NCBI GenBank assembly: GCA_902798365.1
Contig: CADBWP010000002.1
Span: 38,434-102,304, forward strand
Reading direction: 5' to 3'
Origin: an uncultured Ruminococcus sp.
Lineage (GTDB): Bacteria > Bacillota > Clostridia > Oscillospirales > Acutalibacteraceae
DNA length: 63,871 bases
This document shows, one piece after another, positions 8,891 to 33,081 of this stretch. Position numbers and translations under genes: made by a program. Every line of letters starts with the position of its first letter. Position 1 is the stretch's first letter. The notes under the pieces are model-generated. The model was not told the DNA's origin. It saw only the letters and a program-made list of their open reading frames with translations, and ran no database searches.

Positions 8891-9238
8891 ATGGACGCAT
8901 TAAAAACTATCGCTGCGGACTCGGTAAAAGAATCCACCCCCGAGTTTGGCATCGGTGATACCGTAAAGGTATCGGTAAAAATCCGCGAGGGTGAGAGAGA
9001 AAGAATCCAGATGTTCGAGGGCACCGTAATTGCCAAGAGAGGCAGCGGCGTCGCCGAGACCTTCACCGTTAGACGTGTTGCATACGGCGTAGGAGTAGAG
9101 AGAGTGTTCCCGCTTCACTCACCCAACGTTCAGGACGTTAAAGTTGTTCGTTACGGTAAGGTTCGCAGAAGCAAGCTCTACTATCTGCGTGACAGAGTAG
9201 GTAAGGCTGCTAAGGTTAAGGAACAGATTCGTAAGTAA
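8891..9238 (+). CDS. rplS: 50S ribosomal protein L19
   Basis: L19 (115 residues) lies at the interface of the 30S and 50S subunits. Family segments are [49 protein letters not shown] and [17 protein letters not shown], with a C-terminal [17 protein letters not shown]. The ATG at 8891 follows an AGGAGG at 8879-8884; an in-frame ATG at 8864 would contain that site and is rejected. It is a single-gene transcript with its own promoter and a strong terminator. The neighbouring order rplS-lepB-ylqF-rnhB is conserved in Firmicutes. Confidence 0.97.
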
Positions 9239-9250
9239 TTCTCGAATAGT

Positions 9251-9281
9251 AAAAAAGGGAACTGCTTAAGTTCCCTTTTTT
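9251..9281 (+). terminator. Rho-independent terminator of rplS
   Basis: AAAAAAGGGAACT and AGTTCCCTTTTTT form a stem with a 5-base loop, ending in a T6 run. It lies 12 bases after the rplS stop. Confidence 0.88.
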
Positions 9282-9286
9282 ACACT

Positions 9287-9460
9287 ATACGAAATAACAA
9301 TGTTTCGTATTATGGCAATGCTTCTTATACACAGACATATGGCAGCTGACAGAAAACTTATGACCCGCCGTTGCATAAACCTGTTGCTTATCAGCCGGGT
9401 TTCCAAAGGCGGAGAGAGCGACCACCGTCGCTTTTTATCTAAGCGGCTCGCGTTAAGCAG
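9287..9460 (+). promoter_or_regulatory. Structured leader upstream of lepB with terminator-like hairpin
   Basis: This stretch contains a perfect 8-bp hairpin ATACGAAA/TTTCGTAT (9287-9310). It then offers two mutually exclusive pairings: ACCCG (9363-9367) with CGGGT (9396-9400), or CCGCC (9365-9369) with GGCGG (9408-9412). It ends with AGCGAC/GTCGCT and a T5 run (9417-9436), which looks like an intrinsic terminator placed just before the lepB start. This architecture resembles an attenuator. No known riboswitch consensus was recognised. Confidence 0.4.
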
Positions 9461-10216
9461 GTGAAGATGTTGAGTAAAGAGAAACCCAATAATATAAATG
9501 AAGATATCGAAAACGACTTTTCCGACGTTGATCTTGCGCTGGATCTGAGCCCCGAGCTTTATCTTGAAAAGCAAAAGACAGGGGTCAGCAAGTTCAAGGA
9601 GAATTTTCAGGAAGAGTTTAAGGCTGTTTTTGAGGATAACGAAGACGACACCGACAAGAAAAAGTTTCAGACCGTAAAGAGCGACGGCATGACTGCGGGC
9701 ATTTACGACTGGATAAGGTGTGTGCTTTTCGCGGTTTCAATCGTCGTGCTTTGCCTTACCTTTGTTTTCAGACTTGTAGAGGTTGACGGCGCTTCCATGA
9801 ATGATACCCTTGCCAGCAAAGACAAGGTCATTGTTACAAACCTTTTCTATACGCCTCATAACAACGACATAGTTGTCATTGCGCACGGTTCAAACTATCA
9901 GAAGCCTATCATCAAGCGCGTTATCGCGGTTGAAGGACAGTCTATAAAGCTCGACTATGACAACGACAAGATTTATGTTGATGGCATTGAGCTCAACGAG
10001 CCCTATATAGACGGCTCTACCTTTGAAGACAACAGGGGAAACAATCAGATCCCCGACATCGTGCCCGAGGGTAAAATTTTTGTAATGGGCGACAACAGGC
10101 GTGTTTCTCTTGACAGCCGCAGCACCGAGATCGGTCTGATAGATGTCAACGACGTTATCGGCAAGGCGCAGCTTGTGGTTTTCCCGTTTGACCATTTTGG
10201 CTATTTATACGAATAA
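9461..10216 (+). CDS. lepB: Signal peptidase I
   Basis: LepB cleaves signal peptides of secreted proteins at the outer face of the membrane. The protein is 251 residues with an unusually long acidic cytoplasmic N terminus (~80 residues), one membrane segment at about 87-105, and the S26 catalytic domain. The serine motif is VDGASMNDTL, the lysine motif is IIKRVIAVEG, and the late box is VMGDNRRVSLDSRS. The start is uncertain among GTG 9461, ATG 9467 and TTG 9470, all next to an AGGTGA site. Secreted proteins in the cobalamin-type operon are expected clients. Confidence 0.92.
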   Translation: MKMLSKEKPNNINEDIENDFSDVDLALDLSPELYLEKQKTGVSKFKENFQEEFKAVFEDNEDDTDKKKFQTVKSDGMTAGIYDWIRCVLFAVSIVVLCLTFVFRLVEVDGASMNDTLASKDKVIVTNLFYTPHNNDIVVIAHGSNYQKPIIKRVIAVEGQSIKLDYDNDKIYVDGIELNEPYIDGSTFEDNRGNNQIPDIVPEGKIFVMGDNRRVSLDSRSTEIGLIDVNDVIGKAQLVVFPFDHFGYLYE

Positions 10217-10297
10217 GATGATTAAAAAGCTTATTTCTGTTGATACTTTTCGGTATAGATGGGAATGAGCTTTGTTTTTTAAAGCTGAGGAATAAAC

Positions 10298-11133
10298 ATG
10301 AGTGAATCGCAGAACATACAATGGTTTCCCGGTCATATGACCAAAACAAAAAGACAAATACAGGCAAGCCTGAAGCTTGTTGACGCTGTTGCGGAGATCA
10401 TTGACGCACGCATCCCCGTCAGCAGCCGCAACCCCGACCTTAACAGGCTGATACAAAACAAGCCGCGTGTGATCCTGCTCAACAAATGCGATATGGCGAA
10501 TGCTACCGCTACCAAAATGTGGATAGATCACTTTGCCAAGCAGGGAATAACGGCGATCGCTGTTGACTGTAAAAGCGGAAGAGGGCTCAATAAGTTTCCC
10601 TCTGCCGTTAATCAGGTGCTTAGTGAGAGAATAGAGCGCCTGAAAAGCAAGGGTATGGTCAACCCTGTTATGAGAATAATGATCGTGGGCATACCAAACG
10701 TCGGCAAGTCCTCTTTTATCAACCGCATTTCAAAGCAAAACAGGGCAAAGGTTGAGGACAGACCCGGTGTGACCCGCGGCAATCAATGGTTTACAATAAG
10801 CAAAAACCTTGAAATGCTCGACACTCCCGGCGTGCTTTGGCCTAAGTTTGACGATAAGCTCGTTGGCGAACATCTCGCCTTTACCGGCGCCGTCAAGGAT
10901 CAGGTCGTCGATATCGAGCTGCTGGCGGTGCGCCTGCTCGATTTTTTAAAAAAGTCGATCTGGATAATGCCGATTCTTATGAGCTGCTCGGAATAATCGC
11001 AAAAAAACGCGGTATGCTCGTTTCGGGCGGCGAGGTTAACACCGAGCGCGCCGCGATCATGCTGCTTGATGAATTCAGGGCTGCAAAGTCTGGTAGGATC
11101 ACCGTGGAGATGCCGAACGGAGAGATGAAATGA
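10298..11133 (+). CDS. ylqF: Ribosome biogenesis GTPase YlqF/RbgA, coded in two frames
   Basis: RbgA is a circularly permuted GTPase needed for late 50S assembly. The first frame (10298-10954) codes the start [11 protein letters not shown]4 LLNKCD, G1 GIPNVGKSS and [10 protein letters not shown], and on its own would stop at 10996 after 232 residues. The conserved C-terminal domain ([19 protein letters not shown]) continues in the -1 frame from 10954 to the TGA at 11131-11133. The join lies in T6A6G (10942-10954), read TTT TTA AAA AAG, which includes the heptamer A AAA AAG. A -1 shift there gives 278 residues, the normal family length. A hairpin followed by the T-run (10913-10947) lies just upstream. 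Programmed frameshifting, transcriptional slippage, a mutation and a sequence error are all possible. Confidence 0.82.
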
Positions 11134-15344: not shown

Positions 15345-16625
15345 ATGGCACTGAAAGAATGCACAAAGAAAGAAGAAGCAAATTCATACGAGCTCGTTGT
15401 CGAGGTTGACGGCGAAACATTTGAAAAAGCAATTAACGCAGTATATAAAAAACAGGTAAAGAATATCAACATCCAGGGCTTCAGAAAGGGCAAGGCTCCC
15501 AGAAGGATTATAGAAAAGCTTTACGGAGCAGAGGTATTTTACGACGACGCTATTCAGGACTGCTATCCCGACGCTCTTTATGACGCCGCCAAGGAGGCAG
15601 ACATAAAGATAGTTGCCGTTGAATCGCTTGAAGCGGTCGAAGCGGGCAAGGACGGCTTCACCTTCAAGGCAGCCGTTATTGTTGAGCCCACAATGGAGAT
15701 CGACAACTACAAGGGCATTGAGGCGGAGAGAAAATCCACCGAGGTGACCGACGAGCTTATTGATAAGGAAATCGATCAGGTAAGAGAGCGCAACTCGCGT
15801 CTTGTTACCGTTGAGGACAGAGCCGTAGAAAACGGCGATACCGTTGTTATTGACTTTGAGGGTTTTGTTGACGGTGTCGCTTTCGAGGGCGGAAAGGCAG
15901 AGGGCTACAACCTCGCCATCGGTTCCGGCAACTTTATTCCCGGCTTTGAGGAGCAGATCGTAGGTCACTCCACCGGTGAAGAGTTCAGCATAAACGTAAA
16001 ATTCCCCGAAAATTATCAGGCGGAGGAGCTTAAGGACAAGGATGCCGAGTTTAAGATTAAGCTTCACGAGATTAAAACCAAGGAGTTGCCCGAGGTTGAC
16101 GACGAATTTGTAAAGGATGTTTCCGATAAGGACACTCTTGATGAGTACAAGGAAGAGCTTAAGGAAACTATAGCAAAGCGCCTTGTTGAGGAGTCCGACA
16201 AAGACTTTGATAATCAGATCTCAGAGAAGCTTATCGAGCTGGTCGAGGGCGAGATCCCCGAGGCGATGTATGAGAACCAGACCAACGATATGGTAAGAGA
16301 TTTTGAGATGCGCCTGCGTTCTCAGGGTCTTGACGTAGATACCTACATGCAGTACATGGGTATGGATAAAGATGCTCTTAAGGGTATGTACAGAGAAGAA
16401 GCCGAAAAGAGAGTAAAGCTTCGTCTTGCCCTTGAAACCATCGCAAGAAAAGAAAGCATTGAAGTATCCGAGGCTGAGCTTGAAGAGGAATACGGCAAGC
16501 TTGCCGAGAGCTACAGCATGGAAATCGACAGGGTGAAGGCAGCGATTCCCGCGGAATCACTTTCGGAGGACGTTAAAGTTCAGAAGGCTCTTGACCTTGT
16601 TAAGGACAGCGCGGTAATCAAATAA
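15345..16625 (+). CDS. tig: Trigger factor
   Basis: Trigger factor is the ribosome-bound chaperone and prolyl isomerase that meets nascent chains. The protein has 426 residues: an N-terminal ribosome-binding domain with NIQGFRKGKAPRRIIEK (the GFRxGxxP signature), a central FKBP-type domain (about 150-245: GDTVVIDFEGFVDG then GFEEQIVGHSTGEEF) and a C-terminal helical chaperone domain. The ATG at 15345 has a GGAGG site upstream; the ATG at 15330 contains that site and is rejected. tig-clpP-clpX-lon is a frequent order and groups folding and proteolysis. Confidence 0.96.
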   Translation: MALKECTKKEEANSYELVVEVDGETFEKAINAVYKKQVKNINIQGFRKGKAPRRIIEKLYGAEVFYDDAIQDCYPDALYDAAKEADIKIVAVESLEAVEAGKDGFTFKAAVIVEPTMEIDNYKGIEAERKSTEVTDELIDKEIDQVRERNSRLVTVEDRAVENGDTVVIDFEGFVDGVAFEGGKAEGYNLAIGSGNFIPGFEEQIVGHSTGEEFSINVKFPENYQAEELKDKDAEFKIKLHEIKTKELPEVDDEFVKDVSDKDTLDEYKEELKETIAKRLVEESDKDFDNQISEKLIELVEGEIPEAMYENQTNDMVRDFEMRLRSQGLDVDTYMQYMGMDKDALKGMYREEAEKRVKLRLALETIARKESIEVSEAELEEEYGKLAESYSMEIDRVKAAIPAESLSEDVKVQKALDLVKDSAVIK

Positions 16626-16680
16626 TCTGAATAATATTTGATTATCTGCCAACTATTAATTAAGAAAGGTCTTGATTATT

Positions 16681-17262
16681 ATGGCATTGATACCTTATGT
16701 AGTAGAGCAAACCAACCGCGGTGAGCGCTCCTATGATATTTATTCCCGGCTTTTAAACGACAGAATCGTCATGCTTAACGAGGAAGTAAACAGCGCAAGC
16801 GCAAGCGTTATCGTTGCTCAGCTGCTTTACCTTGAAAGCCAGGATCCCACAAAGGACATCAGTCTTTACATCAACAGCCCCGGCGGCAGCGTTACCGACG
16901 GCTTTGCCATCTATGACACAATGAAGTACATCAAGTGCGACGTATCCACAATTTGCATGGGTATGGCTGCAAGCATGGGCGCGTTTCTTCTGTCGGCGGG
17001 CACAAAGGGCAAAAGAATCGCCCTGCCTAACAGCACTATTATGATCCACCAGCCCCTGGGCGGCTATAAGGGTCAGGCGACCGATATGGAGATCCACACA
17101 AGATACATGCTTGACATAAAGGCGCGTTTGAATCAGATTTTGTCGGAGAATACCGGCAAGCCCCTTGATGTTATTAAAAACGACACCGAGCGCGACAACT
17201 TTATGACCGCACAGCAGGCGCTTGAATACGGACTGATAGATAAGGTTATTGATAAGAGATAA
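16681..17262 (+). CDS. clpP: ATP-dependent Clp protease proteolytic subunit
   Basis: ClpP forms the 14-mer proteolytic chamber that works with ClpX. The protein is 193 residues. The catalytic triad is visible: Ser98 in [10 protein letters not shown], His123 in MIHQPLGG and Asp172 in TERDNF. The substrate-binding loop [11 protein letters not shown] is present. The ATG at 16681 follows an AAAGG site; the TTG at 16672 is less likely. It is 14 bases upstream of clpX, so the two subunits are made together. Confidence 0.97.
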
Positions 17263-17276
17263 GGTGAGTAACGCTT

Positions 17277-18614
17277 ATGGCTAACAAGACGAACGACAAA
17301 GAGATTTACTGCTCTTTTTGCGGAAAACCGCAGGATATGGTTTTGCGCATGATTCAGGGAAACGGAGCGTACATCTGTGACCGCTGCGTAGATCTGTGCA
17401 TGAATATCCTTGAGCAGTCGGGTGAAATTGAGCGCGACAGAGGCTTTGAAGATAAGCGCCTTGCGCCCAAGGCTCCCGAGCCCTCGATTGCCGAGCTGTT
17501 AAAGCCAAAGGAAATAAAGGCTATCCTGGATGAATATGTTATCGGACAGGATATGGCTAAAATCACCCTGAGCGTGGCTGTGTATAACCACTATAAGCGC
17601 GCTTTTGCAAATGACGACTCGGTTGATTTTGCCAAGAGCAACGTGCTTTTGCTCGGTCCCACGGGCGTGGGCAAAACCCTGCTTGCACAAACGCTTGCAA
17701 AGGCTCTTGACGTTCCCTTTGCCATTGCGGATGCGACCACTCTTACCGAGGCGGGCTATGTGGGCGAGGATGTTGAAAACATTCTTCTCAAGCTTGTTCA
17801 GGCGGCAGATTATGATATTGAACGCGCCGAACGCGGAATAATATATATCGACGAGATCGACAAGATCGCGCGCAAGTCAGAGAATCCCTCCATCACACGC
17901 GACGTAAGCGGAGAGGGTGTTCAGCAGGCTCTGCTCAAAATCGTTGAGGGTACCGTGGCAAACGTTCCTCCGCAGGGCGGCAGAAAGCATCCTCAGCAGG
18001 AGTTTTTGCAGGTTGATACCAAAAACATACTGTTTATTTGCGGAGGCGCCTTTGACGGTCTTGAAAAGATTGTTGAAAAACGCCGCGGCAACTCGGTCAT
18101 CGGCTTTGAATCGCTTGTTCAGTCCAGAACAGAGCTTGACTCCACCGACTGGATGAAAGAGGTAACAGCCCACGATTTGGTAAAATACGGCATTATTCCC
18201 GAGCTTATCGGTCGTTTGCCCGTAATTACCGCTTTAAGCGGACTTGATACCGAGGCGTTGATCAGCATACTCACTGTTCCCAAAAACTCAATTGTTCAGC
18301 AGTACAAAAGGCTGTTCGAGCTTGACGACGTTGAGCTTTACTTTGAGGACGAAGCGCTTAAGGCGATAGCCGAAAAGGCGCAGGAGCAGAGGACGGGAGC
18401 CAGAGGCTTAAGAGGAATAATGGAAGGTATCCTTACAAGCCTTATGTTTGAAACCCCGTCCGACAACACCATCGAAAAAATCATCATCACAAAGGATGTG
18501 GTGACCGACGGCGCACAGCCTCAGATCACCAGAAGAAAAGAAAAGAAGTCCTTTCCGATGAATCTTGCAAAGAAGGAGCTTGGCAAGCGTTCAAAGCGAA
18601 GCTCGGCATCCTGA
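17277..18614 (+). CDS. clpX: ATP-dependent Clp protease ATP-binding subunit ClpX
   Basis: ClpX is the hexameric AAA+ unfoldase that feeds substrates into ClpP. The N-terminal zinc-binding domain carries Cys12, Cys15, Cys34 and Cys37 (CSFC and CDRC). Walker A is GPTGVGKT, Walker B is IIYIDEIDK, the pore loop region is in AGYVGEDVE and sensor 2 is in [10 protein letters not shown]. The 445-residue length is normal. The C terminus ends with a basic tail. A large hairpin after the stop may separate it from lon. Confidence 0.97.
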
Positions 18615-22983: not shown

Positions 22984-24837
22984 TTATGCAAAAATATTCA
23001 TAACATGCGATACCGCCGCGCAGGATATTATTCCGAATACTGTGGGCAGTACAAACGATAATGCCGTCCATTTCAGGCTTCCCGTTTCTTTTTTTACGGT
23101 CAGGCAAGTTGTAGCGCAGGGATAGTGCATCACAGTCATAAGCAGCATACAAACAGCCGTTGTCATCGTCCATCCGTTTTGTGTCAGAAGACACAATAAC
23201 TGAGCGCTGTCAGAAACCTCCTGCAAGGTACCGCACGACATATACGACATCAGCATTATCGGTATTACCGTTTCATTTGCGGGAAAACCGAGTATAAACG
23301 CCATTACTATTACTCCGTCGAGCCCCAAAAACCTGCCGAACGGGTCAAGAAAACTCGTGCAATGCAGCAAAACCGATGCTCCGCCTACGTTAATATTTGC
23401 GCATAGCCAAATAACCGCTCCTGCCGGAGCTGCCGCTGCCACCGCTCTGCCCAAAACAAACACGGCTCTGTCAAGAAAAGAGCGTACTATAGTCTTAATT
23501 ACCCTCGGCTTTCGGTATGGAGGAAGCTCAAGCGCAAAACCCGACGAGGAACCATTTAGCAGAGTTTTTGACAGCAAAAGCGACGCAAATAGTGTAACTG
23601 CCACACAAAAAGCAAGTACTGCGACCAATACGAGAGCCGCCTTTATTGATGAAAATGCTCCGCTGCCGGCAAAGAACATTGTAATAATCACAATCAGGAT
23701 CGGAAATTTACCGTTGCATGGCATAAACGTATTTGTCACCGTTGCAATAAGCCGCTCTTTTTTGTTTTCTATTATCCTGCATCCCGTAACTCCGCAGGCA
23801 TTACAGCCGAGCCCCATCATCATGCACAGGCTTTGCTTTCCGTGTGCGCCGCATTTGTGCATTAATTTGTCAAGATTAAAGGCGATTCGCGGCATGTATC
23901 CCGAATCCTCTATCAGCGAAAACAACGGAAAAAATATCGCCATGGGCGGAAGCATCACCGCAACGACCCAGCCGAGGGTTGTATATATGCCGTCTATCAA
24001 CAGCCCCGATACGAAGGGCGGTATATTAAGCAAAACAGCCGATTCCTTAAGCTCTGTTTTTACCGCATTAAACAGCGCACTCAGCCATTCGCTCGGATAG
24101 TTTGCGCCCACAGCCGTGATCCAGAAAAGCACTCCGCAAAGCAAAAGCATGATGGGTATTCCCGTCGCCCTTGATGTAAACAGACGGTCAAGTTTGCGGG
24201 TTCTTTGAGTTATTCTGTCGGTATCTGACTGTACAACACATTCCTCATAGATACGTTTAGCCGTTTCGCCGAGAGTACAGCCGCTGTTAAGCGTATCCAT
24301 AGAATCTATTCCGTGGTAAAACCTGTTATGATTTGCGTTATACGGCTTTTCGCATACGGACTTTACGGCAGCTTTTATTTCGTTTAGCCCGCGTTTTTTT
24401 ACCGCACAGCTTTCCGTTACGGGAACGCCGAGTTCTTTTTTCAGCTGCTCTGTATTTATAGTCAGACCGTTTTTCTTTGCTTCGTCAAAAAGATTCAGAC
24501 ATACCACAGCCCTGCGGCATACTGTCAACGCCTGAAGCGCAAAATAAAGATTGCGTCTCAGCGCGTTTGCATTCAGCACAATAACCGCGCAGTCAAAGCC
24601 GCCGACAATCGCTTCTCTTGTAACTGCCTCATCGCTTGAAAAAGAGGACAGGGAGTAGGCGCCCGGCAAATCCGTGACCGAAAAAACATGGTTTTTATAA
24701 CAAAATCGCCCCACAGCGCCCTCAACGGTTTTTCCTGTCCAGTTGCCTGTATGCTGCTTTAAGCCTGTAAGAGCGTTGAATAAAGTGCTTTTACCAACGT
24801 TCGGGTTACCGATCAAAGCTATTCTGTATTCGCTCAT
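22984..24837 (-). CDS. feoB: Ferrous iron transport protein B
   Basis: FeoB (617 residues) is a membrane Fe(II) permease with a cytoplasmic GTPase domain. The N-terminal G domain shows G1 GNPNVGKSTLFN, a G2 region in TGNWTGKTVEG, G3 DLPGAYSL and G4 NLFDEAKK. About eight to ten membrane segments follow from residue ~230, with conserved core segments such as MMGLGCNACGVTGC and the GFPANETVIPI stretch. It overlaps feoA by 4 bases on the minus strand. The length is somewhat short for the family. Iron starvation control is expected but I see no clear Fur box. Confidence 0.93.
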   Translation of the reverse strand: MSEYRIALIGNPNVGKSTLFNALTGLKQHTGNWTGKTVEGAVGRFCYKNHVFSVTDLPGAYSLSSFSSDEAVTREAIVGGFDCAVIVLNANALRRNLYFALQALTVCRRAVVCLNLFDEAKKNGLTINTEQLKKELGVPVTESCAVKKRGLNEIKAAVKSVCEKPYNANHNRFYHGIDSMDTLNSGCTLGETAKRIYEECVVQSDTDRITQRTRKLDRLFTSRATGIPIMLLLCGVLFWITAVGANYPSEWLSALFNAVKTELKESAVLLNIPPFVSGLLIDGIYTTLGWVVAVMLPPMAIFFPLFSLIEDSGYMPRIAFNLDKLMHKCGAHGKQSLCMMMGLGCNACGVTGCRIIENKKERLIATVTNTFMPCNGKFPILIVIITMFFAGSGAFSSIKAALVLVAVLAFCVAVTLFASLLLSKTLLNGSSSGFALELPPYRKPRVIKTIVRSFLDRAVFVLGRAVAAAAPAGAVIWLCANINVGGASVLLHCTSFLDPFGRFLGLDGVIVMAFILGFPANETVIPIMLMSYMSCGTLQEVSDSAQLLCLLTQNGWTMTTAVCMLLMTVMHYPCATTCLTVKKETGSLKWTALSFVLPTVFGIISCAAVSHVMNIFA

Positions 24838-25061
24838 AAAGCCTCCGCAACATGTATGCTTTCACAGTCTGTCTTTCTCAGGGCAATTACTGTTTCATTA
24901 ACGTAGTACGCCGTCGGATCTCCGAACGGACTTCTGAACAAGGCCGTCACCGTTGCTCCCTCCTCAAGCCCCAAGGCGGTGATCCTGCGGCTCAGGCTGT
25001 TGTTTGTGTCAAAACGTTGCACTATTGCCCGTGTATCAAGCGGCAAATCGCATAATCTCAT
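24834..25061 (-). CDS. feoA: Ferrous iron transport protein A
   Basis: FeoA is a small SH3-like cytosolic protein that acts with FeoB. The 75-residue sequence shows LCDLPLDTRAIV, RRITALGLEEGATVTALFRSP, and ALRKTDCESIHV, matching the family core (ITALGL then G). I prefer the ATG at 25061, preceded by GGTGAT; the in-frame ATG at 25079 would add six residues. The gene is transcribed away from the EamA transporter gene and overlaps feoB, so the pair forms a two-gene operon. Confidence 0.88.
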   Translation of the reverse strand: MRLCDLPLDTRAIVQRFDTNNSLSRRITALGLEEGATVTALFRSPFGDPTAYYVNETVIALRKTDCESIHVAEAL

Positions 25062-25123
25062 AGCATCACCAAAAATCATATTTATTACAGGCTATGCAAT
25101 AGGGGATTATGTGTGAATAACAC

Positions 25124-25173: not shown

Positions 25174-26115
25174 GTGACAAAAACCAATAACCTGCGCAGC
25201 AGCATATACCTTTCGCTTACGGCGTTGATTTGGGGCGTAGCCTTTGTATTTCAGTCTATGGGTAACGACAGCATGGAGCCGTTCACCTTTACCGCGTCAC
25301 GTTATCTTTTGGGCGGTTTGGTGCTGCTTCCCGTAATTCTTATAAAATATAAGCATCCGCGTTTTCTTGCCGACAGCGATGAGATCCCCGTAAAAAAGGT
25401 TCCCGTAAAGGTTACCGCTATCGGAGGACTGCTCTGCGGATTGTTCCTCGGTACAGCTACCTTGCTGCAGCAGTTCGGAATGAAGCATACAACCGTCGGC
25501 AAGGCGGGCTTTATCACTACGCTTTACATTATCCTTACGCCGATTTTCGGACTTGTTCTCAAAAAAACCTGCCACTTTACCGTGTGGATAGGTGCGGCGG
25601 CAGCGGTTATCGGAATGTATCTGCTGTGCATAACAGAGGACTTTTCGCTTTCACCCGGCGATATTTTGGTTTTTCTTTGCGCTATTGTTTTTACCCTTCA
25701 CATAATGACGATAGATCATTTTGCACCAAAAACAAACGGCGTGCTGCTTTCGTGTATTCAGTTTTTTGTCAGCACAGTCCTTTGCGGTATTTTGGCATTT
25801 ATTTTTGAACAGCCATCCTTTGATCAAATACAAAACGGTCTTATTCCCATACTATACACGGGAATAATGTCGAGCGGAGTGGCATACACGCTTCAAATCC
25901 TCGGTCAGCGAGGTTTTAATCCCACAATTGCCGCAATGATAATGAGCTTTGAGTCCGTTGTGTCTGCCGTGGCAGGATACTTTGCCTATGAATGGGGATT
26001 TCTTACTCAAAACCAGAGCATGACTGCCTTGCAGATAATCGGCTGTGTAATAATGTTTTGTGCTGTCGTTTTTGTTCAGCTTCCGTTCGATAAATTATCG
26101 TCGCGCAAACATTGA
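25174..26115 (+). CDS. EamA/DMT family transporter
   Basis: A membrane protein of 313 residues with about ten helices and two EamA repeats. The first repeat is about residues 10-140 (LTALIWGVAFVFQSMG, then RYLLGGLVLLP) and the second about 160-300 (YTGIMSSGVAYTLQILGQR then SFESVVSAVAGY). Family members are drug/metabolite exporters of mostly unknown substrate. The start is a GTG after a GGGGTGAG site. Its stop codon overlaps the -35 box of the next promoter, so it is probably a single-gene unit unrelated to the following riboswitch operon, though readthrough is possible. Confidence 0.88.
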   Translation: MTKTNNLRSSIYLSLTALIWGVAFVFQSMGNDSMEPFTFTASRYLLGGLVLLPVILIKYKHPRFLADSDEIPVKKVPVKVTAIGGLLCGLFLGTATLLQQFGMKHTTVGKAGFITTLYIILTPIFGLVLKKTCHFTVWIGAAAAVIGMYLLCITEDFSLSPGDILVFLCAIVFTLHIMTIDHFAPKTNGVLLSCIQFFVSTVLCGILAFIFEQPSFDQIQNGLIPILYTGIMSSGVAYTLQILGQRGFNPTIAAMIMSFESVVSAVAGYFAYEWGFLTQNQSMTALQIIGCVIMFCAVVFVQLPFDKLSSRKH

Positions 26116-26140
26116 CTGATACCGAAAAATATGATATAAT
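26112..26140 (+). promoter_or_regulatory. Promoter of the cobalamin-type operon
   Basis: TTGACT (26112-26117) and TATAAT (26135-26140) with a 17-base spacer; the -35 box overlaps the EamA stop codon. Transcription would begin near 26147, giving a leader of about 250 bases. Confidence 0.88.
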
Positions 26141-26146
26141 CTGATA

Positions 26147-26352
26147 AAACAGAATAACAGCCTGCGTGTTTTACCTCTTGGGTAAGTAATAGAGAATACG
26201 GTGGAAACCCGTAACAACTGTCATTACCGTGTTTTGCGCTTTTGCAATCAGTCGGATCGCTTCCGCACAGGCTTGGATTTGTATTCTTGGACAAGAAGAA
26301 GCACAGCCAAAATCACCGCACTCTGCTGCGGTTTGTTGTGTTGTGCTTTTCT
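26147..26352 (+). promoter_or_regulatory. Probable cobalamin riboswitch with terminator
   Basis: A closing stem AGCCTG (26159-26164) pairs with CAGGCT (26268-26273). Inside are a TTACC-TCTTG-GGTAA hairpin (26171-26185) and the segments AATAGAGAAT, ACGGTGGAAACCCG and CAACTGTCA, which follow the cobalamin aptamer core (GGGAA, GGTGAAAATCC, CACTGT). CAGTCGGATCG lies before the closing strand. A downstream hairpin from 26301 to 26346 with an ACCGCA/TGCGGT tip and a TTTTCT tail fits a terminator. The aptamer is compact and diverges from the consensus. The downstream ECF and transcobalamin-like genes support the call. Confidence 0.7.
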
Positions 26353-26398
26353 ATAAAGAAAGGCGCTTTTTTATTTGCCGAAAACGGAGGAGATTTAT

Positions 26399-27397
26399 AT
26401 GAAAAAACTAACAAAAGCTGTTGTATCGGCGGCGCTCGCCGCATCGCTCGCGGTGTCAGCTGCGGTGTTCACCGTTAATGCCGAGAATACCGCATCAAAG
26501 GTAAGAGTAGTACTTAAAAATGAAAACTTTCCTGCAAGTCAGGGAGCAGCCTGGGACGGCGTGCTTGTTGATGAGTGGGTGACGATTTCAGACTCCGATT
26601 CTGCGGAATCCGTGCTTGAAAACACCTTTACTGCCAAGGGCTACAGCATCGAGATATCAAATTACGGATACATCAGCGAGGTTAACGGCTTGGGCGAGTA
26701 CGACAACAACGGCAACGGCGGCTGGATGATAAGCCTTAACGACTGGTTTACCACAGACAGCGCAAGCGCTTACACCGTTGCTTCCGGCACGCTTCAGGAC
26801 GGTGACGAGCTTGTTATGCAATACACAAACAGCTGGGGCGCCGACTGCGGAAGCCTGTACGGCGTACTCGATACATCCTTAAAAGGATTGTCCTTTGAAA
26901 ACGCCGCTCTTTCGGCTCCGTTCTCACAGCACAACACCAACTATGTTCTGTCTATCGACGACGAAACCGAAATAATCAAAGCTTTGCCCGAGGCATACAA
27001 CAAGAATTATCAGGTTAGAACCTATCTTAACGGTTATGATCCCGATGTTGCAGGTGCAGAGATAAAAAGAACAAGCAGCTTTACTGTTGCTGACGGCGAC
27101 GTTATCAGCATCGGCGTAGGCAATCCCACGTGGCCTTCCATGAATTCATGGGTCGGTACTGCGGATGAAACCGTATATACGGTAACGGTTGTTTGTGCGG
27201 CAAAGCATAACTTTGAGCAGGGCGACGTAGATCTTAACAGCCTGTTGAGCATTGACGACGCCACTATTGTTCAAAGATATCTTGCAGAATACGAAGACCT
27301 TGACCCAAACCGCTATTCCATTGCAGATTTTGACGGCGACGGAATAGTGACTATCTTTGACGTTACCGCGATCCAGGTCAAGCTCGCGGAAGCATAA
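26399..27397 (+). CDS. Secreted DUF4430 (transcobalamin-like beta) protein with dockerin
   Basis: A 332-residue secreted protein. The signal peptide covers about residues 1-28 (MKKLTKAVVSAALAASLAVS, ending VNA). The DUF4430 domain follows at about 35-150 with the family end GGWMISLNDWF and LQDGDELVMQYTNSWG. A middle beta domain spans ~155-265. A type I dockerin occupies ~275-332, with two calcium-loop repeats, DVDLNSLLSIDD and DFDGDGIVTIFD. DUF4430 corresponds to the C-terminal domain of animal transcobalamin and intrinsic factor, so corrinoid binding is inferred. The dockerin implies attachment to a cohesin protein outside this window. The ATG at 26399 has a GGAGG site; the TTG at 26375 is rejected. 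Confidence 0.85.
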   Translation: MKKLTKAVVSAALAASLAVSAAVFTVNAENTASKVRVVLKNENFPASQGAAWDGVLVDEWVTISDSDSAESVLENTFTAKGYSIEISNYGYISEVNGLGEYDNNGNGGWMISLNDWFTTDSASAYTVASGTLQDGDELVMQYTNSWGADCGSLYGVLDTSLKGLSFENAALSAPFSQHNTNYVLSIDDETEIIKALPEAYNKNYQVRTYLNGYDPDVAGAEIKRTSSFTVADGDVISIGVGNPTWPSMNSWVGTADETVYTVTVVCAAKHNFEQGDVDLNSLLSIDDATIVQRYLAEYEDLDPNRYSIADFDGDGIVTIFDVTAIQVKLAEA

Positions 27398-27585
27398 TGA
27401 ATATAAAAACCGAAAACGCGCTCCTACTCTTACAGAAAAAACATCAAGAGCTGGGGCGCGTTCCTCAAAAATCAGATTTTACGGGTGAAGAGGTTTGCTT
27501 TATTAAGCAAAAGCTCGGGCCTTGGCCGCGCGCACTTGAAAAAGCAGGGTTAAAGTCAGTACATCCGACAAAGAACAACAGATGA
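27397..27585 (+). CDS. Small protein resembling a homing-endonuclease-associated repeat
   Basis: A 62-residue basic protein with no signal peptide. Its sequence has the pattern ELGRVPQKSDF, then IKQKLGPWPRALEKAGL, which resembles the short helical repeat (HNR) found beside homing and HNH endonucleases and thought to bind DNA. No nuclease domain is present. It overlaps the previous stop by one base (TAATG) and the next start by four (ATGA), so it is translated as part of the operon. A regulatory or DNA-binding role is only a guess; an evolutionary remnant is possible. Confidence 0.65.
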   Translation: MNIKTENALLLLQKKHQELGRVPQKSDFTGEEVCFIKQKLGPWPRALEKAGLKSVHPTKNNR

Positions 27586-28751
27586 ACAGTACCATGAAAA
27601 CAATCATAACTAAAACAACAGCCATACTGTTGTTTGCAGTCTTGCTGTCGCTTTCCTGTATTATGCCGAGTGCAGTCTCCGAAGACGACCTTATGCGTCA
27701 CTATAATGCAACGGCAGAAAAGCTTTTGTCAGACCCCGTTCCACAGGTCGGCTCCATGGGCGGAGAATGGGAGATAATAGGTCTTGCACGGTCGGGCAGG
27801 TTATCTGCGGAAGCGGCGGAGGCTTACTATCAAAACGTTGCAGGCTTTGTTGCCGATAAAAACAGCGCCGTGCTTAACAAGCGCAAGTCAACCGACAATT
27901 CGCGTGTTATTTTAGCGTTGTCGGCAATCAACAGGGACGCAAGAGATGTATCCGGCTTTGACTTGCTTTCTCCGCTGTCGGATTTTGACTATGTAAAACG
28001 GCAGGGTATAAACGGCGTTATTTGGGCGCTTATTGCGCTCGATTCAAAAAACTATCCGGTGGCTTCGGGCTCCGATCCTTCAATAAGAGAACGGCTTGTT
28101 GAACACATTCTTTCCGCTCAGCTGCCCGACGGAGGCTGGACGGGAAGCGGCGATATATCCGACCCGGACATAACCGCCATGGCGTTGCAGGCGCTCGCGC
28201 CGTATTGTCGTTATGATAACAGCGTACAAGCTGCTGTTGACAAGGCTGTTGAACTGCTGTCGTCATTGGTGTTGTCTGACAACGCGCATTTGTTCACCCC
28301 CGAAACCGACGCGCAAATAATAACCGCGCTTGCATCCCTCGGCATCGACCCGACCCGTGACGAAAGGTTTTGCAAGAATGGGTCAGACCTTACCGATTAT
28401 ATTATGCAGTACGCCGTTGACGGTGGCTTTGAGCATGAAAAAAACGGCGGCTTCAACCAAATGAGCACCGAGCAGGCTTTTTACTCACTAACAGCTTACT
28501 ATCGACTTTTAAACGGGAACACCACTCTCTATGACATGACCGACACGGGGATGATTTCCGGTTTTATGTATGATTTTAACCGCGACGGCATTGAGGATAT
28601 CAACGATGTCACAACGCTTCAAGCCGTACTTGCCGAGTATGAGGAGCTGCCTGCGTTTGAAAAAAGGATAGCCGACAAAAACAAAAACGGCGTTATCGAT
28701 ATTACCGACGCCGCTGCTTTGCAATACCGTTTGGCATTTGAAAAGGATTAA
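27582..28751 (+). CDS. Secreted alpha/alpha-toroid (transcobalamin alpha-like) protein with dockerin
   Basis: A 389-residue secreted protein. The signal peptide covers about residues 1-33. The body (about 50-325) consists of helical repeats like those of prenyltransferase/squalene-cyclase toroids, with GEWEIIGLARSGRL, WALIALDSKNY, SAQLPDGGWTGSGDISDPDI and ITALASLGIDP. The N-terminal half of animal intrinsic factor and transcobalamin has the same fold. A type I dockerin ends the protein (about 331-389; DFNRDGIEDIND and DKNKNGVIDITD). Terpene cyclase activity is unlikely because the protein is exported and lies beside DUF4430 and ECF genes. A corrinoid-binding role is inferred. Confidence 0.82.
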   Translation: MNSTMKTIITKTTAILLFAVLLSLSCIMPSAVSEDDLMRHYNATAEKLLSDPVPQVGSMGGEWEIIGLARSGRLSAEAAEAYYQNVAGFVADKNSAVLNKRKSTDNSRVILALSAINRDARDVSGFDLLSPLSDFDYVKRQGINGVIWALIALDSKNYPVASGSDPSIRERLVEHILSAQLPDGGWTGSGDISDPDITAMALQALAPYCRYDNSVQAAVDKAVELLSSLVLSDNAHLFTPETDAQIITALASLGIDPTRDERFCKNGSDLTDYIMQYAVDGGFEHEKNGGFNQMSTEQAFYSLTAYYRLLNGNTTLYDMTDTGMISGFMYDFNRDGIEDINDVTTLQAVLAEYEELPAFEKRIADKNKNGVIDITDAAALQYRLAFEKD

Positions 28752-28754
28752 GCT

Positions 28755-29594
28755 ATGACAGCTTTTTTAAAAAAATATAAATTCTATATAATAGCTGCCG
28801 CTGTGGCTGTTGTTGTTCTGATAATCGCGTTTGTTAGCGGCGGAAGCGTTTCGCCGCAGCAAATCCCGGCTCCTGCAAAAGCGACCGCAGACAGCGCGGA
28901 AACAACAGTCGTGCCGCAAAGCTCAGATGCTGCCGTAGCTGTGACAGAGGCTGCAACAGAGAACACTTCCACCGAGCCTTCGACCGCAAAGCTTGTCGAG
29001 ACATCCGCGTCTGCCGCTGTTGCTTCAACAGGTGCAGAACCTACACAGGCTCAAACGGAAAACGATACTAAAGAAGAACCTCATACTCAGCCTGCCGAGA
29101 CGCGCACCGAAGCAGCGGAAACACACAAAACCGACCCCGTTCCCGCTCAAAAACCTGCGCCTGTTGAGCCGCAGGAACAAACCACCGAGGACAAAAAATC
29201 GGTTTGCACCTTTTCGATTTCCTGCACAGCGATACTAAATCATAAGGATGAAATAGATGATGCCGTTCTTGAGCTTGTGCCGGACGACGGCTGGCTGCTA
29301 AAGCCCGTTACGGTGGAAATAGCAGAGGGCGAAAGCGTTTTTGAAGTGACAAAGCGCATATGCCGCGACAACGGTATTCATTTTGAATTCAGCTTTAATC
29401 CCGCATTTAATTCGGCATATATTGAAGGAATAGGAAACATCTATGAGTTTGACTGCGGTGACAGCTCGGGCTGGTTGTATCAGGTCAACGACTGGTTTCC
29501 CAACTACGGCTGTTCACGCTATGTTCTGCATGACGGAGATACCGTAAGCTGGCATTATTCCTGCGTTAACGGCGATTTTGCAGCGATTGATTAA
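28755..29594 (+). CDS. Membrane-anchored DUF4430 (transcobalamin-like beta) protein
   Basis: A 279-residue protein with an uncleaved-type N-terminal membrane segment at about residues 8-27, a long low-complexity Thr/Glu/Ala/Pro linker (~35-155), and a C-terminal DUF4430 domain at about 180-275. The domain shows VFEVTKRICRDNGIHFEF, SSGWLYQVNDWFP and LHDGDTVSWHYSC. Unlike the first DUF4430 protein it has no dockerin and seems tethered to the membrane through a wall-spanning linker. This placement would suit handover of a ligand to the ECF transporter encoded next. The start lies 3 bases after the previous stop. Confidence 0.82.
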   Translation: MTAFLKKYKFYIIAAAVAVVVLIIAFVSGGSVSPQQIPAPAKATADSAETTVVPQSSDAAVAVTEAATENTSTEPSTAKLVETSASAAVASTGAEPTQAQTENDTKEEPHTQPAETRTEAAETHKTDPVPAQKPAPVEPQEQTTEDKKSVCTFSISCTAILNHKDEIDDAVLELVPDDGWLLKPVTVEIAEGESVFEVTKRICRDNGIHFEFSFNPAFNSAYIEGIGNIYEFDCGDSSGWLYQVNDWFPNYGCSRYVLHDGDTVSWHYSCVNGDFAAID

Positions 29595-29602
29595 GATTGA
29601 CC

Positions 29603-30490
29603 ATGAAAGATTCATTTTCGGGTATGCACCCTATAACAAACCTCGTGTTTTTTGCGGCGGCATTGGGCTTTTCAATGTTTGTAATGCAGCCTGTTTGCGC
29701 TGCGCTTTCACTTACATGCGCTCTTGCAAACGCGCTGTATCTCGGAGGAAAAAAGACCGCTCTGTTCAGCCTGCGGTTTTTGCTGCCTGCCGTCATACTT
29801 ATTACAATAATCAATCCGCTAATAAATCACAGGGGAGCAACAATAATAGAATATCTGCCGTGGGGAAATCCGCTCACCTTAGAGTCGGTCGTGTTCGGCA
29901 TAATAAGCGCTGTGGTGCTGTGTTCGGCAGCACTGTGGTTTTCGTGCGTCAACAGAGTTATGACCTCGGACAAGCTTGTGTATCTTTTCGGCAAAACGGC
30001 TCCGTCGCTCGGGCTTTTGCTCTCTGTTTCGCTAAGATTTGTGCCGCACTTTGCGGCGGAGCTTAAGCAGACGGCAAAGGCACAAAAGCAGCTGTACAAC
30101 ACAGACGGCGCATCATTTGTAAAACGTCTGAAATTTAGCCTGCGGGTGCTGTCGGTTATGATAACCAAATCGCTTGAGGAAGCGGTTGATACGTCGGACT
30201 CAATGAAAAGCAGAGGCTACGGATTAAAAGGCCGCACAGCGTACTCGATTTATTCGTTCACAACATCCGATAAGGCTTTGACTGCTGTGATGATAGCAGA
30301 AATACTGATATTGTTAACAATTATAATCTTCGGCGGACTTGGATTCAGATACTTTCCGTCAATTAAAGGAAATCCTGCAAGCGCAGGCTCAATTGCTTTT
30401 TATACTGTTTATACGGCGTTTCTGCTCACACCGCTGATCATTAATGTGGGGGAGGGATTTAGATGGAAGCGCTCAAGGTCGAAAATCTGA
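29603..30490 (+). CDS. ECF transporter T component
   Basis: EcfT is the membrane scaffold that couples the ATPases to the S component. The 295-residue protein has about six membrane segments and the cytoplasmic coupling helices with EEAVDTSDSMKSRGYG, which includes the family Arg-Gly pair. The ATG at 29603 is preferred over the TTG at 29597; the ribosome binding site is weak, suggesting coupling to the previous gene, which ends 8 bases upstream. It overlaps the next gene by 28 bases. Its position in a riboswitch operon suggests a dedicated (group I-like) vitamin transporter rather than a shared module. Confidence 0.87.
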   Translation: MKDSFSGMHPITNLVFFAAALGFSMFVMQPVCAALSLTCALANALYLGGKKTALFSLRFLLPAVILITIINPLINHRGATIIEYLPWGNPLTLESVVFGIISAVVLCSAALWFSCVNRVMTSDKLVYLFGKTAPSLGLLLSVSLRFVPHFAAELKQTAKAQKQLYNTDGASFVKRLKFSLRVLSVMITKSLEEAVDTSDSMKSRGYGLKGRTAYSIYSFTTSDKALTAVMIAEILILLTIIIFGGLGFRYFPSIKGNPASAGSIAFYTVYTAFLLTPLIINVGEGFRWKRSRSKI

Positions 30491-33081
30491 GCTTTTGTTA
30501 CCCTAATACAAAGAAGCATGCCATAAAAGACATCAGCTTTTCGGTAGCTCACGGCGAATTTGTAACCCTTTGCGGTAAGTCTGCAAGCGGAAAAACAACT
30601 CTGCTGCGCCTTCTAAAGCCTACCGTTGCTCCGCACGGAAACAAAGAGGGAACAGTTGCTCTCGGCGGAAAGGAGCTTTATTCTCTGCCCATGCGCGAGC
30701 AGGCAGAAAAAATCGGCTTTGTCTGGCAATCGCCCGACAGTCGGCTTGTCACAGACAAGGTGTGGCATGAGCTTGCATTCGGGCTTGAAAACCTTGGCGA
30801 GTCAAACGATGTTATCAGACGCAGAGTTGCCGAAACCGCGTCTTTTTTTGGTATTCAGGAGTTTTTTGATAAAAGCGTTAACGAGCTTTCGGGCGGTCAA
30901 AAGCAGCTGTTGAGCCTTGCGTCCGTAATGGTTATGCAGCCCGAGATTTTGATACTTGATGAACCGACAGCCCAGCTTGACCCGATTGCGGCAGCGGATT
31001 TTTTAGCGTGCCTTTCAAGAATAAACCGTGAGCTCGGAACAACCGTTATCATTTCCGAGCACAGACTCGATGATGTCCTGCCCTTAAGCGACAGGGTATT
31101 GGCACTTGAGGGCGGAGAGCTTATCTGTAACTGTCCTCCCCGTGAAGCAGGAGTTGAGCTAAAGGAGCGTAACAACGCCTATTTTTCCTCTTTGCCGTCG
31201 CCCATGAGGATATGGAGCGCTGTTGAAACGGGTGGCGCCCCCTGTCCCGTTACGGTGACACAGGGCAGGGAATGGCTAAGCGGTTTTGCGGCGGAAAACA
31301 AGTTTTACGAATTGTATGAAGAAGATATTCCCGCCCCGGGAGATGTGGCGGTCTCACTTAAGAATATTTGGTTCCGTTACGAAAAAAACTCGCCCGATGT
31401 TATAAAAAACCTTTCGGCAGAGTTTCGACGCGGAGAGATCGTTTCCGTGTTGGGCGGCAACGGCGCAGGAAAATCAACCCTGCTCTCTATAATAAACGGC
31501 TCCAATAAACCGTACAGGAGAAAGGTTATTTCTAATAACGAATTATGCTTGACGTTACCGCAAAATCCCCAATTGCTGCTCGACGGGAAAACGGTTAAGG
31601 AAAGCCTTGAAAACGTTCTTAAAGACAGGGCTTTATCGGAAAACGAAATAACTAAAAGACTTTCCTATGTTACTTCGCTGTGTGGTTTGCAGGAATTGTC
31701 GGATCGCCATCCGTTTGATTTATCGGGCGGCGAAACACAGCGCGCAGCCCTCGCAAAGCTTTTGCTGCTAAAGCCCGGAATATTGCTGCTCGACGAGCCT
31801 ACAAAGGGACTTGACGCGCAGTTTAAGGCGGTGTTGGCAAATATACTGAAAACTCTTGCAGAACAGGGCGTTGCGGTTATTATGGTAAGCCACGACGTGG
31901 AATTTTGTGCTTCATGCAGCCACAGGTGCGCAATGCTATTCAACGGCGAGTTAACGGCGCAGGGCACGCCGCGAGAGTTTTTCGGCAGCAATATGTTTTA
32001 TGTCACCTCTGCACGCCGCATGTCAAAGGGAATCATACCGGACGCTGTAACTGCTGACGAAGTGATATATTGCTGCACGGGAAAAAGAACAGTTTCGGAT
32101 GTCAATACCGACATTGGGCTGTATGACGATGATACAAGCGATGATCAAAACTCATCCGATACAAAGCCTACGATGTCGCTTTGGCAAAGGATCATCTGCC
32201 TGTCGGGCGCTATACTTCTGCTTTTCGGAATAGCAGTAAATCTCGATTATCTTCCGTTTATTGCTTCATCAGCTCTTCCTCTGTGGCTTAACGCATTGTT
32301 TATTGCCGTTCCGTCGGTTATGCTGCTTATAACCTTAAATACGGGAGAGGGGGAGAACAAACAGACTATACGGAAACAAAAGCTGCCTAAACGCACAAAA
32401 GCGGCTGCGGCAATGGTACTGTTTGCCGTGCCCGTTACGATTTTTGCAGGCTCCTTTTATTTGTCCGATCAAAAATACCTGTTCATTTCATTATTGGTGC
32501 TTTTTGAGTGTATGCTTCCGTTTTTCCTGATTTTTGAGGGCAGAAAGCCGCAGGCGCGCGAGCTTGTAATTATCGCCGTGCTATGCGCGATCACCGTTGC
32601 AGGGCGAACCGCGTTTTTGGCGCTGCCGCAGGTAAAGCCGGTCATAGCCCTGGTAATCATTTCGGGCATAGCGCTGGGCGGAGAGTCCGGGTTTATGGTG
32701 GGTGCAGTCGGTATGCTTCTTTCAAACATATACTTCGGGCAGGGCGCATGGACGCCGTGGCAGATGTTTGCGGCAGGCATAATCGGATTCATATCGGGAG
32801 TGCTGATAAAGAAGAACCTGCTGGGCAAAAGCAGGCTGTTTTTAAGTATCTACGGCTTTATCGTAACGGTGGCTGTATATGGTCTTATAATGAACTTTTC
32901 TTCATTGGTGCTTTCTCATGCACCCCTTACCCGTGAATCACTTATTGCGTATTATGCGCAGGGGCTGCCGTTCGACATTGTTCACGGAATATCTACGGCT
33001 TTGGTGCTGTTCTTTTTTTCAAAACCTATGCTCGAAAAGCTTGATCGGATAAAAACAAAATACGGATTATACCGATCTTGA
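30463..33081 (+). CDS. Fused ECF ATPase-ATPase-S component
   Basis: An 872-residue polypeptide. ABC domain 1 (about 1-245) has Walker A GKSASGKTT (38-46), signature LSGGQKQLL and Walker B ILILDEPTAQLDP. ABC domain 2 (about 290-525) has GGNGAGKST, LSGGETQRAAL and LLLDEPTKGLD. After a linker (~540-570) comes a membrane region with about eight helices in which ARELVIIAVLCAITVAGR, GGESGFMVGA and GQGAWTPWQMFAAG follow the ECF S-component pattern of the CbrT-type proteins. All parts except EcfT are thus in one chain. Cobalamin or a related corrinoid is the inferred substrate, from the riboswitch and neighbours. Confidence 0.85.
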   Translation: MEALKVENLSFCYPNTKKHAIKDISFSVAHGEFVTLCGKSASGKTTLLRLLKPTVAPHGNKEGTVALGGKELYSLPMREQAEKIGFVWQSPDSRLVTDKVWHELAFGLENLGESNDVIRRRVAETASFFGIQEFFDKSVNELSGGQKQLLSLASVMVMQPEILILDEPTAQLDPIAAADFLACLSRINRELGTTVIISEHRLDDVLPLSDRVLALEGGELICNCPPREAGVELKERNNAYFSSLPSPMRIWSAVETGGAPCPVTVTQGREWLSGFAAENKFYELYEEDIPAPGDVAVSLKNIWFRYEKNSPDVIKNLSAEFRRGEIVSVLGGNGAGKSTLLSIINGSNKPYRRKVISNNELCLTLPQNPQLLLDGKTVKESLENVLKDRALSENEITKRLSYVTSLCGLQELSDRHPFDLSGGETQRAALAKLLLLKPGILLLDEPTKGLDAQFKAVLANILKTLAEQGVAVIMVSHDVEFCASCSHRCAMLFNGELTAQGTPREFFGSNMFYVTSARRMSKGIIPDAVTADEVIYCCTGKRTVSDVNTDIGLYDDDTSDDQNSSDTKPTMSLWQRIICLSGAILLLFGIAVNLDYLPFIASSALPLWLNALFIAVPSVMLLITLNTGEGENKQTIRKQKLPKRTKAAAAMVLFAVPVTIFAGSFYLSDQKYLFISLLVLFECMLPFFLIFEGRKPQARELVIIAVLCAITVAGRTAFLALPQVKPVIALVIISGIALGGESGFMVGAVGMLLSNIYFGQGAWTPWQMFAAGIIGFISGVLIKKNLLGKSRLFLSIYGFIVTVAVYGLIMNFSSLVLSHAPLTRESLIAYYAQGLPFDIVHGISTALVLFFFSKPMLEKLDRIKTKYGLYRS

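Follow-up and report, generated by a model that had tools for sequence, protein, structure and literature searches.

The window, as the whole stretch of DNA analysed here is called, comprises 63,871 nucleotides from an uncultured Ruminococcus sp. (assembly GCA_902798365.1, contig CADBWP010000002.1, positions 38,434 to 102,304). Between its positions 26112 and 33081 it carries a promoter-like site, a leader RNA and then six genes with overlapping or nearly touching ends (Table 1). These are likely to form a riboswitch-switched operon for corrinoid uptake, in which a split transcobalamin-like catcher seated on cohesins passes the corrinoid via a membrane-anchored DUF4430 protein to an energy-coupling factor (ECF) transporter of the CbrT type. 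As to whether cellulosome-forming bacteria of gut and rumen assemble a split transcobalamin-like B12 carrier by cohesin-dockerin docking and with it feed an ECF transporter that has a tethered binder, we see the balance as even.

In the mechanism that we propose, the leader would let transcription through when corrinoid is scarce. The two secreted proteins, one with a DUF4430 domain (beta) and one with an alpha/alpha toroid (alpha), would together make up one transcobalamin-like binder; both halves would plug into surface cohesins via their dockerins, meet there and close around the corrinoid in the manner of the two transcobalamin domains. The anchored DUF4430 protein would then take over the corrinoid or present it to the S domain and would thus be a tethered substrate-binding protein, a role suggested because the anchored protein is conserved and because a complex of the beta domain with cobalamin has been solved (5np4). 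Finally, the ECF module with its CbrT-type S domain would import the corrinoid. The boldest step is that the two dockerins kept after the gene split would reunite the halves on one scaffold. Corrinoid binding, the joint closure of the halves and the order of the hand-over are what we infer from the findings that follow.

The transporter, the leader RNA and the probable ligand

An earlier note, made from the sequence of the window, had described six tightly packed genes in which an ECF transporter follows the exported proteins. Both points are borne out, the first by the positions of the open reading frames (ORFs) and by their Pfam domains, the second by the match of the fifth gene product to CbiQ/EcfT, by the two ATP-binding cassette (ABC) ATPases of the sixth and by its S domain, which matches 6fnp_A with E = 4.4e-13, the runner-up being 4hzu_S at 0.052. 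6FNP is the PDB entry for ECF-CbrT, through which Lactobacillus delbrueckii takes up cobalamin (PMC5997447). As in a CbrT-type ECF transporter, EcfT is present along with two EcfA ATPases.

For comparison, 100 loci were compiled (20 and 79 loci of relatives and the window). These are fewer than 100 independent cases because L035 and L115 represent a single locus taken from two sources, and L036 resembles L131; it should also be noted that the protein of L049 and some others are cut by contig ends, and that L100 is without a toroid ORF by the ORF caller used. The other 99 loci have a toroid ORF, which is accompanied by a gene for a CbrT-like S component in 73 and by S, EcfT and DUF4430b together in 70. 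Some of the 29 toroid loci without the full set are truncated by the end of a contig or stretch (e.g., L049, L078, L083), and five long stretches (L037, L091, L096, L113, L132) have a toroid and no S gene, a point against our reading. The operon adjoins a MetH-type gene in L047 and BtuR in L039, and a gene for a HemD-methylase lies nearby in L035. The genome of the window itself encodes BtuR and, in a frame of 816 amino acids, a protein with a B12-binding domain. CbiC has no match in it at E ≤ 1e-3, and this absence, in a genome that is 86% complete, does not prove auxotrophy, a limit that is to be counted among the points against our reading.

The leader had been called a probable cobalamin riboswitch, and with the family model RF00174 this did not hold for the window directly: the leader is not listed at the gathering cut-off (31.5 bits), reaches 17.3 bits in sensitive mode, and in the window's own genome RF00174 has no match at E ≤ 1e-3. 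What stands is homology. The covariance model R1, which was built from the leaders of 16 relatives with the window excluded, finds the window's leader with 151.4 bits (E = 6.8e-39) and with every modelled pair retained. Counted irrespective of position relative to genes, it has matches in 53 of the 99 loci, 16 of these being the training set. RF00174 was run on 37 of the relatives' 99 loci and gave a match at or above the gathering cut-off, upstream of the toroid operon and in the same orientation as the operon, for 18 of them (9 of 18, 5 of 10 and 4 of 9); the remaining 19 have no match at that cut-off, and in L038 and L050 a match lies farther upstream with other genes or ORFs intervening. 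Among the R1 training leaders, 14 were scanned, of which seven pass RF00174 (L062, L064, L065, L067, L073, L075, L083) and seven fail; this failure rate and the scores of the window weigh against a riboswitch of the cobalamin family. On the other side, 58 of the 59 invariant columns of the leader alignment are retained in the window, the single exception lying in the P5 loop, and 8 of the 20 base pairs show changes on both sides. By its homology to leaders that pass RF00174, we take the leader of the window to be a diverged cobalamin riboswitch. A match to the PyrR leader (21.8 bits, cut-off 54) was rejected; it coincides with the terminator hairpin and those ahead of it.

Regulation is probably by transcription termination; a terminator-like hairpin with a T run follows the aptamer. 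The segment GAAGAAGCAC at 26295-26304 could, by eye, pair with the 5' arm of this hairpin as antiterminator. The minimum-energy fold of 26290-26376 has GAAGAAGCAC paired with the GC and T run on the 3' side and not with the 5' arm, and the antiterminator is for this reason a suggestion only.

The earlier note had taken B12 as the ligand by inference. This is supported by the CbrT-type S domain, by RF00174 matches upstream in related loci and by MetH-type and BtuR neighbours in two of them, and on these sequence data B12 or a related corrinoid as ligand of the operon appears strongly supported.

DUF4430 and toroid as proposed halves of one binder

The anchored DUF4430 protein (DUF4430 with E = 7.5e-16) has, by eye, an N-terminal membrane helix followed by a linker of approximately 120 residues rich in A, P, T and E. 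Its DUF4430 domain was predicted with a mean local confidence (pLDDT) of 89.6, and when the model was compared with the PDB by Foldseek, 17 of the 18 matches at E ≤ 1e-3 were chains of transcobalamin, intrinsic factor or haptocorrin, the remaining one being the Ruminococcus gnavus protein 3u7z. The top match is 5no0, human transcobalamin's beta domain on its own (E = 8.5e-6; template-modelling score 0.72 by target length), and 5np4, the same human domain crystallised alone with cyanocobalamin, is among the matches. On the predicted model, therefore, the anchored domain is of the transcobalamin beta fold and the kinship is specific, just as the earlier note had said of DUF4430 and the C-terminal half of transcobalamin. 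The beta fold was modelled on the anchored domain of the window, and the toroid fold on a relative from R. bromii ATCC 27255 (L074).

The two secreted proteins are less readily recognized by Pfam. In the beta half DUF4430 is found over the cut-off (7.7e-7), with a cadherin-like domain and Dockerin_1 under it; in the alpha half Prenyltrans, a toroid model, is under the cut-off at 0.0053. In the relatives the cadherin-like domain is over the Pfam cut-off in L035 and at it in L047, and toroid models are over it in L046; in other relatives they are under it. The R. bromii relative, a single chain of 633 amino acids, was predicted with a pLDDT of 92.5 and a predicted template-modelling score (pTM) of 0.74. 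The toroid had been assigned the fold of the N-terminal half of transcobalamin; in the model of the relative an alpha/alpha toroid is seen, with transcobalamin as one match among several kinds of toroid. The best PDB matches of the model are generic alpha/alpha toroids, with transcobalamin at ranks 8, 9, 19, 31 and 36 of the 42 at E ≤ 1e-3, and the toroid matches farnesyltransferases, terpene cyclases, alpha-2-macroglobulin and complement about as well. As modelled, the toroid fold is not specific for B12 carriers. Moreover, the sequence profiles of the toroid (A1, E ≤ 1), of DUF4430 (A2, E ≤ 10) and of the fused protein (A4, E ≤ 10) find no transcobalamin or intrinsic factor chain in the PDB. 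All of this counts against a transcobalamin-like pair, and because the model matches generic toroids and the profiles find neither carrier, the toroid assignment rests on fold and context.

The first PDB matches of the toroid profile are squalene-hopene cyclases, which likewise tells against a B12 binder and would suit a toroid protein that is an enzyme of the terpene cyclase or prenyltransferase type in an operon importing something else. We hold this to be very improbable and have rejected it owing to the lack of the DxDD motif and to the setting of the toroid in the operon: just one of the 105 toroid domains has DxDD, the motif of class II terpene cyclases, and none has the thioester motif GCGEQ; against an enzyme there are also the signal peptides seen by eye, the CbrT-type S domain and the cobalamin riboswitches in related loci.

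That the toroid and DUF4430 belong together, as had been proposed, is supported by relatives in which they form one chain. DUF4430-cadherin and toroid are combined in a single ORF in 24 cases, 13 of them with a dockerin, and R. bromii YE282, ATCC 27255 and 5AMG have this form. In 17 loci the two are separate neighbouring genes, and every one of these loci has a dockerin on each half; the 17 include L066, which was missed by the distance filter that listed 16, and L082, where a break divides the DUF4430 half between two ORFs, the second bearing the dockerin. When the split and fused states are placed on a tree for the ATPase-S protein, made by a short search from 46 rows and with 12 of its 42 inner branches open, no fewer than four changes are required. 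A point against the likeness to the animal carriers is the domain order, which in the single chains with a cadherin-like domain is DUF4430 then toroid (beta then alpha) and in animal B12 carriers alpha then beta.

It is conceivable that corrinoid uptake is right but that the halves do not clamp one molecule: each could bind alone, or only the anchored DUF4430 could bind B12, and the toroid protein could adhere to something else, e.g., a B12 carrier, a glycan or the cell wall. We consider this unlikely. The human beta domain crystallised with cyanocobalamin on its own (5np4) and the generic fold of the toroid agree with it, as do L039 and L042, where the anchored type was the one kind of DUF4430 gene found beside the toroid gene. 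The 24 single chains and the dockerins on both halves of every split locus point, in contrast, to joint action, and 11 residues are invariant across 22 toroids (W35, T76, Q113, G114, L122, G156, T170, L177, Y180, F255 and Q270).

Side observations on the toroid genes concern L046, where one toroid protein (8991-11036) has two tandem toroid domains and a dockerin, and past the transporter genes another protein with a dockerin (15816-17624) has a FIVAR match below the cut-off.

Dockerins, cohesins and membrane anchors

Two type I dockerins had been claimed for the secreted proteins. By hmmscan both are below the Dockerin_1 cut-off of 22.9 bits (21.0 bits in the beta half, 20.1 in the alpha half), and in a whole-genome search with the dockerin model (PF00404) both are over the cut-off with 25.4 and 23.0 bits, ranking 47 and 51 of 51. 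Both dockerins are weak matches.

The proteins had further been supposed to be held by cohesins. Cohesins are indeed encoded, with seven matches in the window's genome, six of them over the cut-off; the docking of the two dockerin proteins to them is the part that we put forward conditionally. In this genome L142 encodes two adjacent proteins of 308 and 703 amino acids and L145 one of 294; Pfam finds a cohesin in each of the three, and each seems by eye to end in a membrane helix. L143, also of this genome, is a cohesin-dockerin adaptor. In the 703-residue protein (L142:2312-4423) a second cohesin-like stretch that Pfam does not call is visible by eye, and this protein is a candidate for a scaffold that would hold two dockerin proteins side by side. 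In two relatives a cohesin-type gene lies in the operon itself, between the genes for the toroid and the anchored DUF4430 protein (L044:8145-8777 and L045:6998-7687), and its product has an N-terminal membrane helix by eye; the Cohesin match is over the cut-off in L044 (1.3e-8) and below it in L045 (0.009). The dockerins of the toroid proteins of these loci are below the Pfam cut-off (19.2 and 19.6 bits for L044 and L045) and reach 2e-11 and 8e-11 with our own dockerin profile.

Docking appears not to be universal. A dockerin is present on only 41 of 103 toroid ORFs, and L038, L051, L097 and L103 have an extra separate DUF4430 gene whose product is without cadherin-like domain and, by our own profile, without dockerin; both findings weigh against a general docking role. 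L105 has dockerins on a cadherin-free separate DUF4430 protein and on the toroid protein. Eight dockerin-free toroid chains were examined by eye: five have a clear C-terminal membrane helix followed by a basic tail (L035, L038, L039, L047, L051), L043 ends in a hydrophobic stretch, and L042 and L103 have no clear C-terminal membrane helix. The anchored-type DUF4430 proteins have a membrane helix or a lipobox-like motif within the first 110 residues in 74 of 75 cases, by a crude rule.

The dockerins could also serve the cellulosome loosely, the proteins being shed or fibre-bound and gathering B12 away from the cell, or they could be relics. The low ranks of the window's two dockerins among the 51 of the genome would fit. 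Dockerins on both halves were, on the other hand, kept in all 17 split loci, a membrane anchor takes the place of the dockerin in the five chains just named, the operons of L044 and L045 bring their own anchored cohesin, and the window's genome encodes cohesin proteins with C-terminal membrane helix. Loose docking is, in our estimation, quite improbable, and docking at the cell surface is preferred.

Known systems and further features of the locus

Extracellular capture of B12 by gut bacteria is known from BtuG and BtuH of Bacteroides, surface B12 binders whose folds differ from those of the window's proteins and which serve an outer-membrane TonB system. With the animal carriers transcobalamin, intrinsic factor and haptocorrin the operon has in common that the DUF4430/beta fold and an alpha/alpha toroid (the latter on the R. 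bromii relative) go together. It differs in that the window has two separate proteins with a cadherin-like domain between, in the lack of a sequence-profile match, and in that the relatives' fused chains with the cadherin-like domain put DUF4430 before the toroid.

The ECF-CbrT transporter of L. delbrueckii shares with the operon the CbrT-type S component, EcfT, two EcfA ATPases and a location among B12 genes, which in L. delbrueckii is nrdJ-cbrS-cbrT-pduO (PMC5997447). In the window, by contrast, S is fused to both ATPases and preceded by three transcobalamin-like exported proteins, two of them with dockerins. In known ECF transporters the role of substrate-binding protein is ascribed to the S component itself, and the portion of that paper drawn on here describes no extracellular binder and names cbrS without a function (PMC5997447). 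In Lacticaseibacillus rhamnosus a lipoprotein is annotated as an additional component of a putative cobalamin ECF transporter; a surface protein as extra part of B12 ECF transport is thus common to both, the annotation being without experiment, and toroid, dockerin and cohesin are not mentioned in the portion consulted (PMC9963975). The R. bromii amylosome and the ruminococcal cellulosomes likewise have dockerin-tagged proteins in cohesin scaffoldins, some of which are cell-anchored; the cargo named for the amylosome is starch enzymes, and neither B12 nor cobalamin occurs in the main text (PMC5814915).

Already known are B12 transport by ECF transporters with CbrT and a lipoprotein annotated as an extra part (PMC9963975). 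New are the one-chain relatives, the paired dockerins in split loci, the anchored cohesin within the operon of two relatives, and the small HNH_repeat protein as product of one of the six genes. Searches of open-access PMC papers turned up no description of a bacterial transcobalamin-like, dockerin-tagged B12 binder; a toroid partner, its dockerins, the fused or split state of the pair and an in-operon cohesin were likewise not found described there.

If the proposal is true, it would account for the way in which Gram-positive gut bacteria that need B12 compete for corrinoids, among them R. bromii with its single-chain form, which has been reported to be unable to make B12 (PMC6231298). Cellulosome and amylosome scaffolds would have a non-enzymatic use in vitamin capture, and an ECF transporter would have a dedicated extracellular binding protein. 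The two-domain principle of the animal B12 carriers would exist in bacteria in a split, modular form, which would bear on the origin of those carriers, and DUF4430, a term that occurs in only 6 papers of the open-access collection searched, would have a function.

Table 1. Features of the operon and its leader, in positions of the window (all on the + strand)
Feature	Positions	Strand	Length (amino acids)	Remarks
Promoter-like site TTGACT-17-TATAAT	26112..26140	+		At stop codon of upstream EamA gene; 11 of 12 consensus bases
Putative leader of cobalamin-riboswitch type (aptamer core and next conserved hairpin)	26156..26308	+		Found by R1; sub-threshold with RF00174
Terminator-like hairpin with T run, part of the leader	26343..26366	+		
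Putative beta half: secreted DUF4430, cadherin-like and dockerin protein	26399..27397	+	332	Signal peptide by eye
HNH_repeat small protein	27397..27585	+	62	Overlaps stop of preceding and start of next gene
Putative alpha half: secreted alpha/alpha toroid and dockerin protein	27582..28751	+	389	Signal peptide by eye
Membrane-anchored DUF4430 protein with long linker	28755..29594	+	279	
EcfT transmembrane subunit	29603..30490	+		CbiQ/EcfT 1.7e-6 (Pfam)
EcfA-EcfA'-S fusion (two ABC ATPases and ECF S domain)	30463..33081	+		CbrT-like S domain within 32143-33081

The promoter-like site is by itself weak evidence because one such site is observed and 0.9 are expected from shuffles. The small protein between the two halves matches HNH_repeat (PF18780) with 2.4e-10, a homing-endonuclease-associated repeat, and is possibly a nucleic-acid-binding regulator of the operon. 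Relatives of its gene (tblastn, E ≤ 1e-3) are present in 25 of the 99 other loci (26 of 100 with the window), in most cases a short way ahead of the toroid gene or between the two halves, and elsewhere in the window's genome PF18780 is found in one place only, with two repeats in one frame.

Of 200 genomes from the family, 52 have toroid matches at E ≤ 1e-5, the window's own included; the query comprised the dockerin, and some rows are matches to the dockerin only. In a sample of the phylum 60 of 299 genomes, again including the own, have matches at E ≤ 1e-10, the weaker of which may be other toroid proteins. The nearest named loci are mostly from Ruminococcus-type genomes of rumen or gut. One record titled Bacteroidales bacterium (L130) contains the operon together with ECF genes, which may reflect either transfer or a misbinned contig. 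Upstream of the operon the window carries feoB and feoA on the minus strand (22984-25079).

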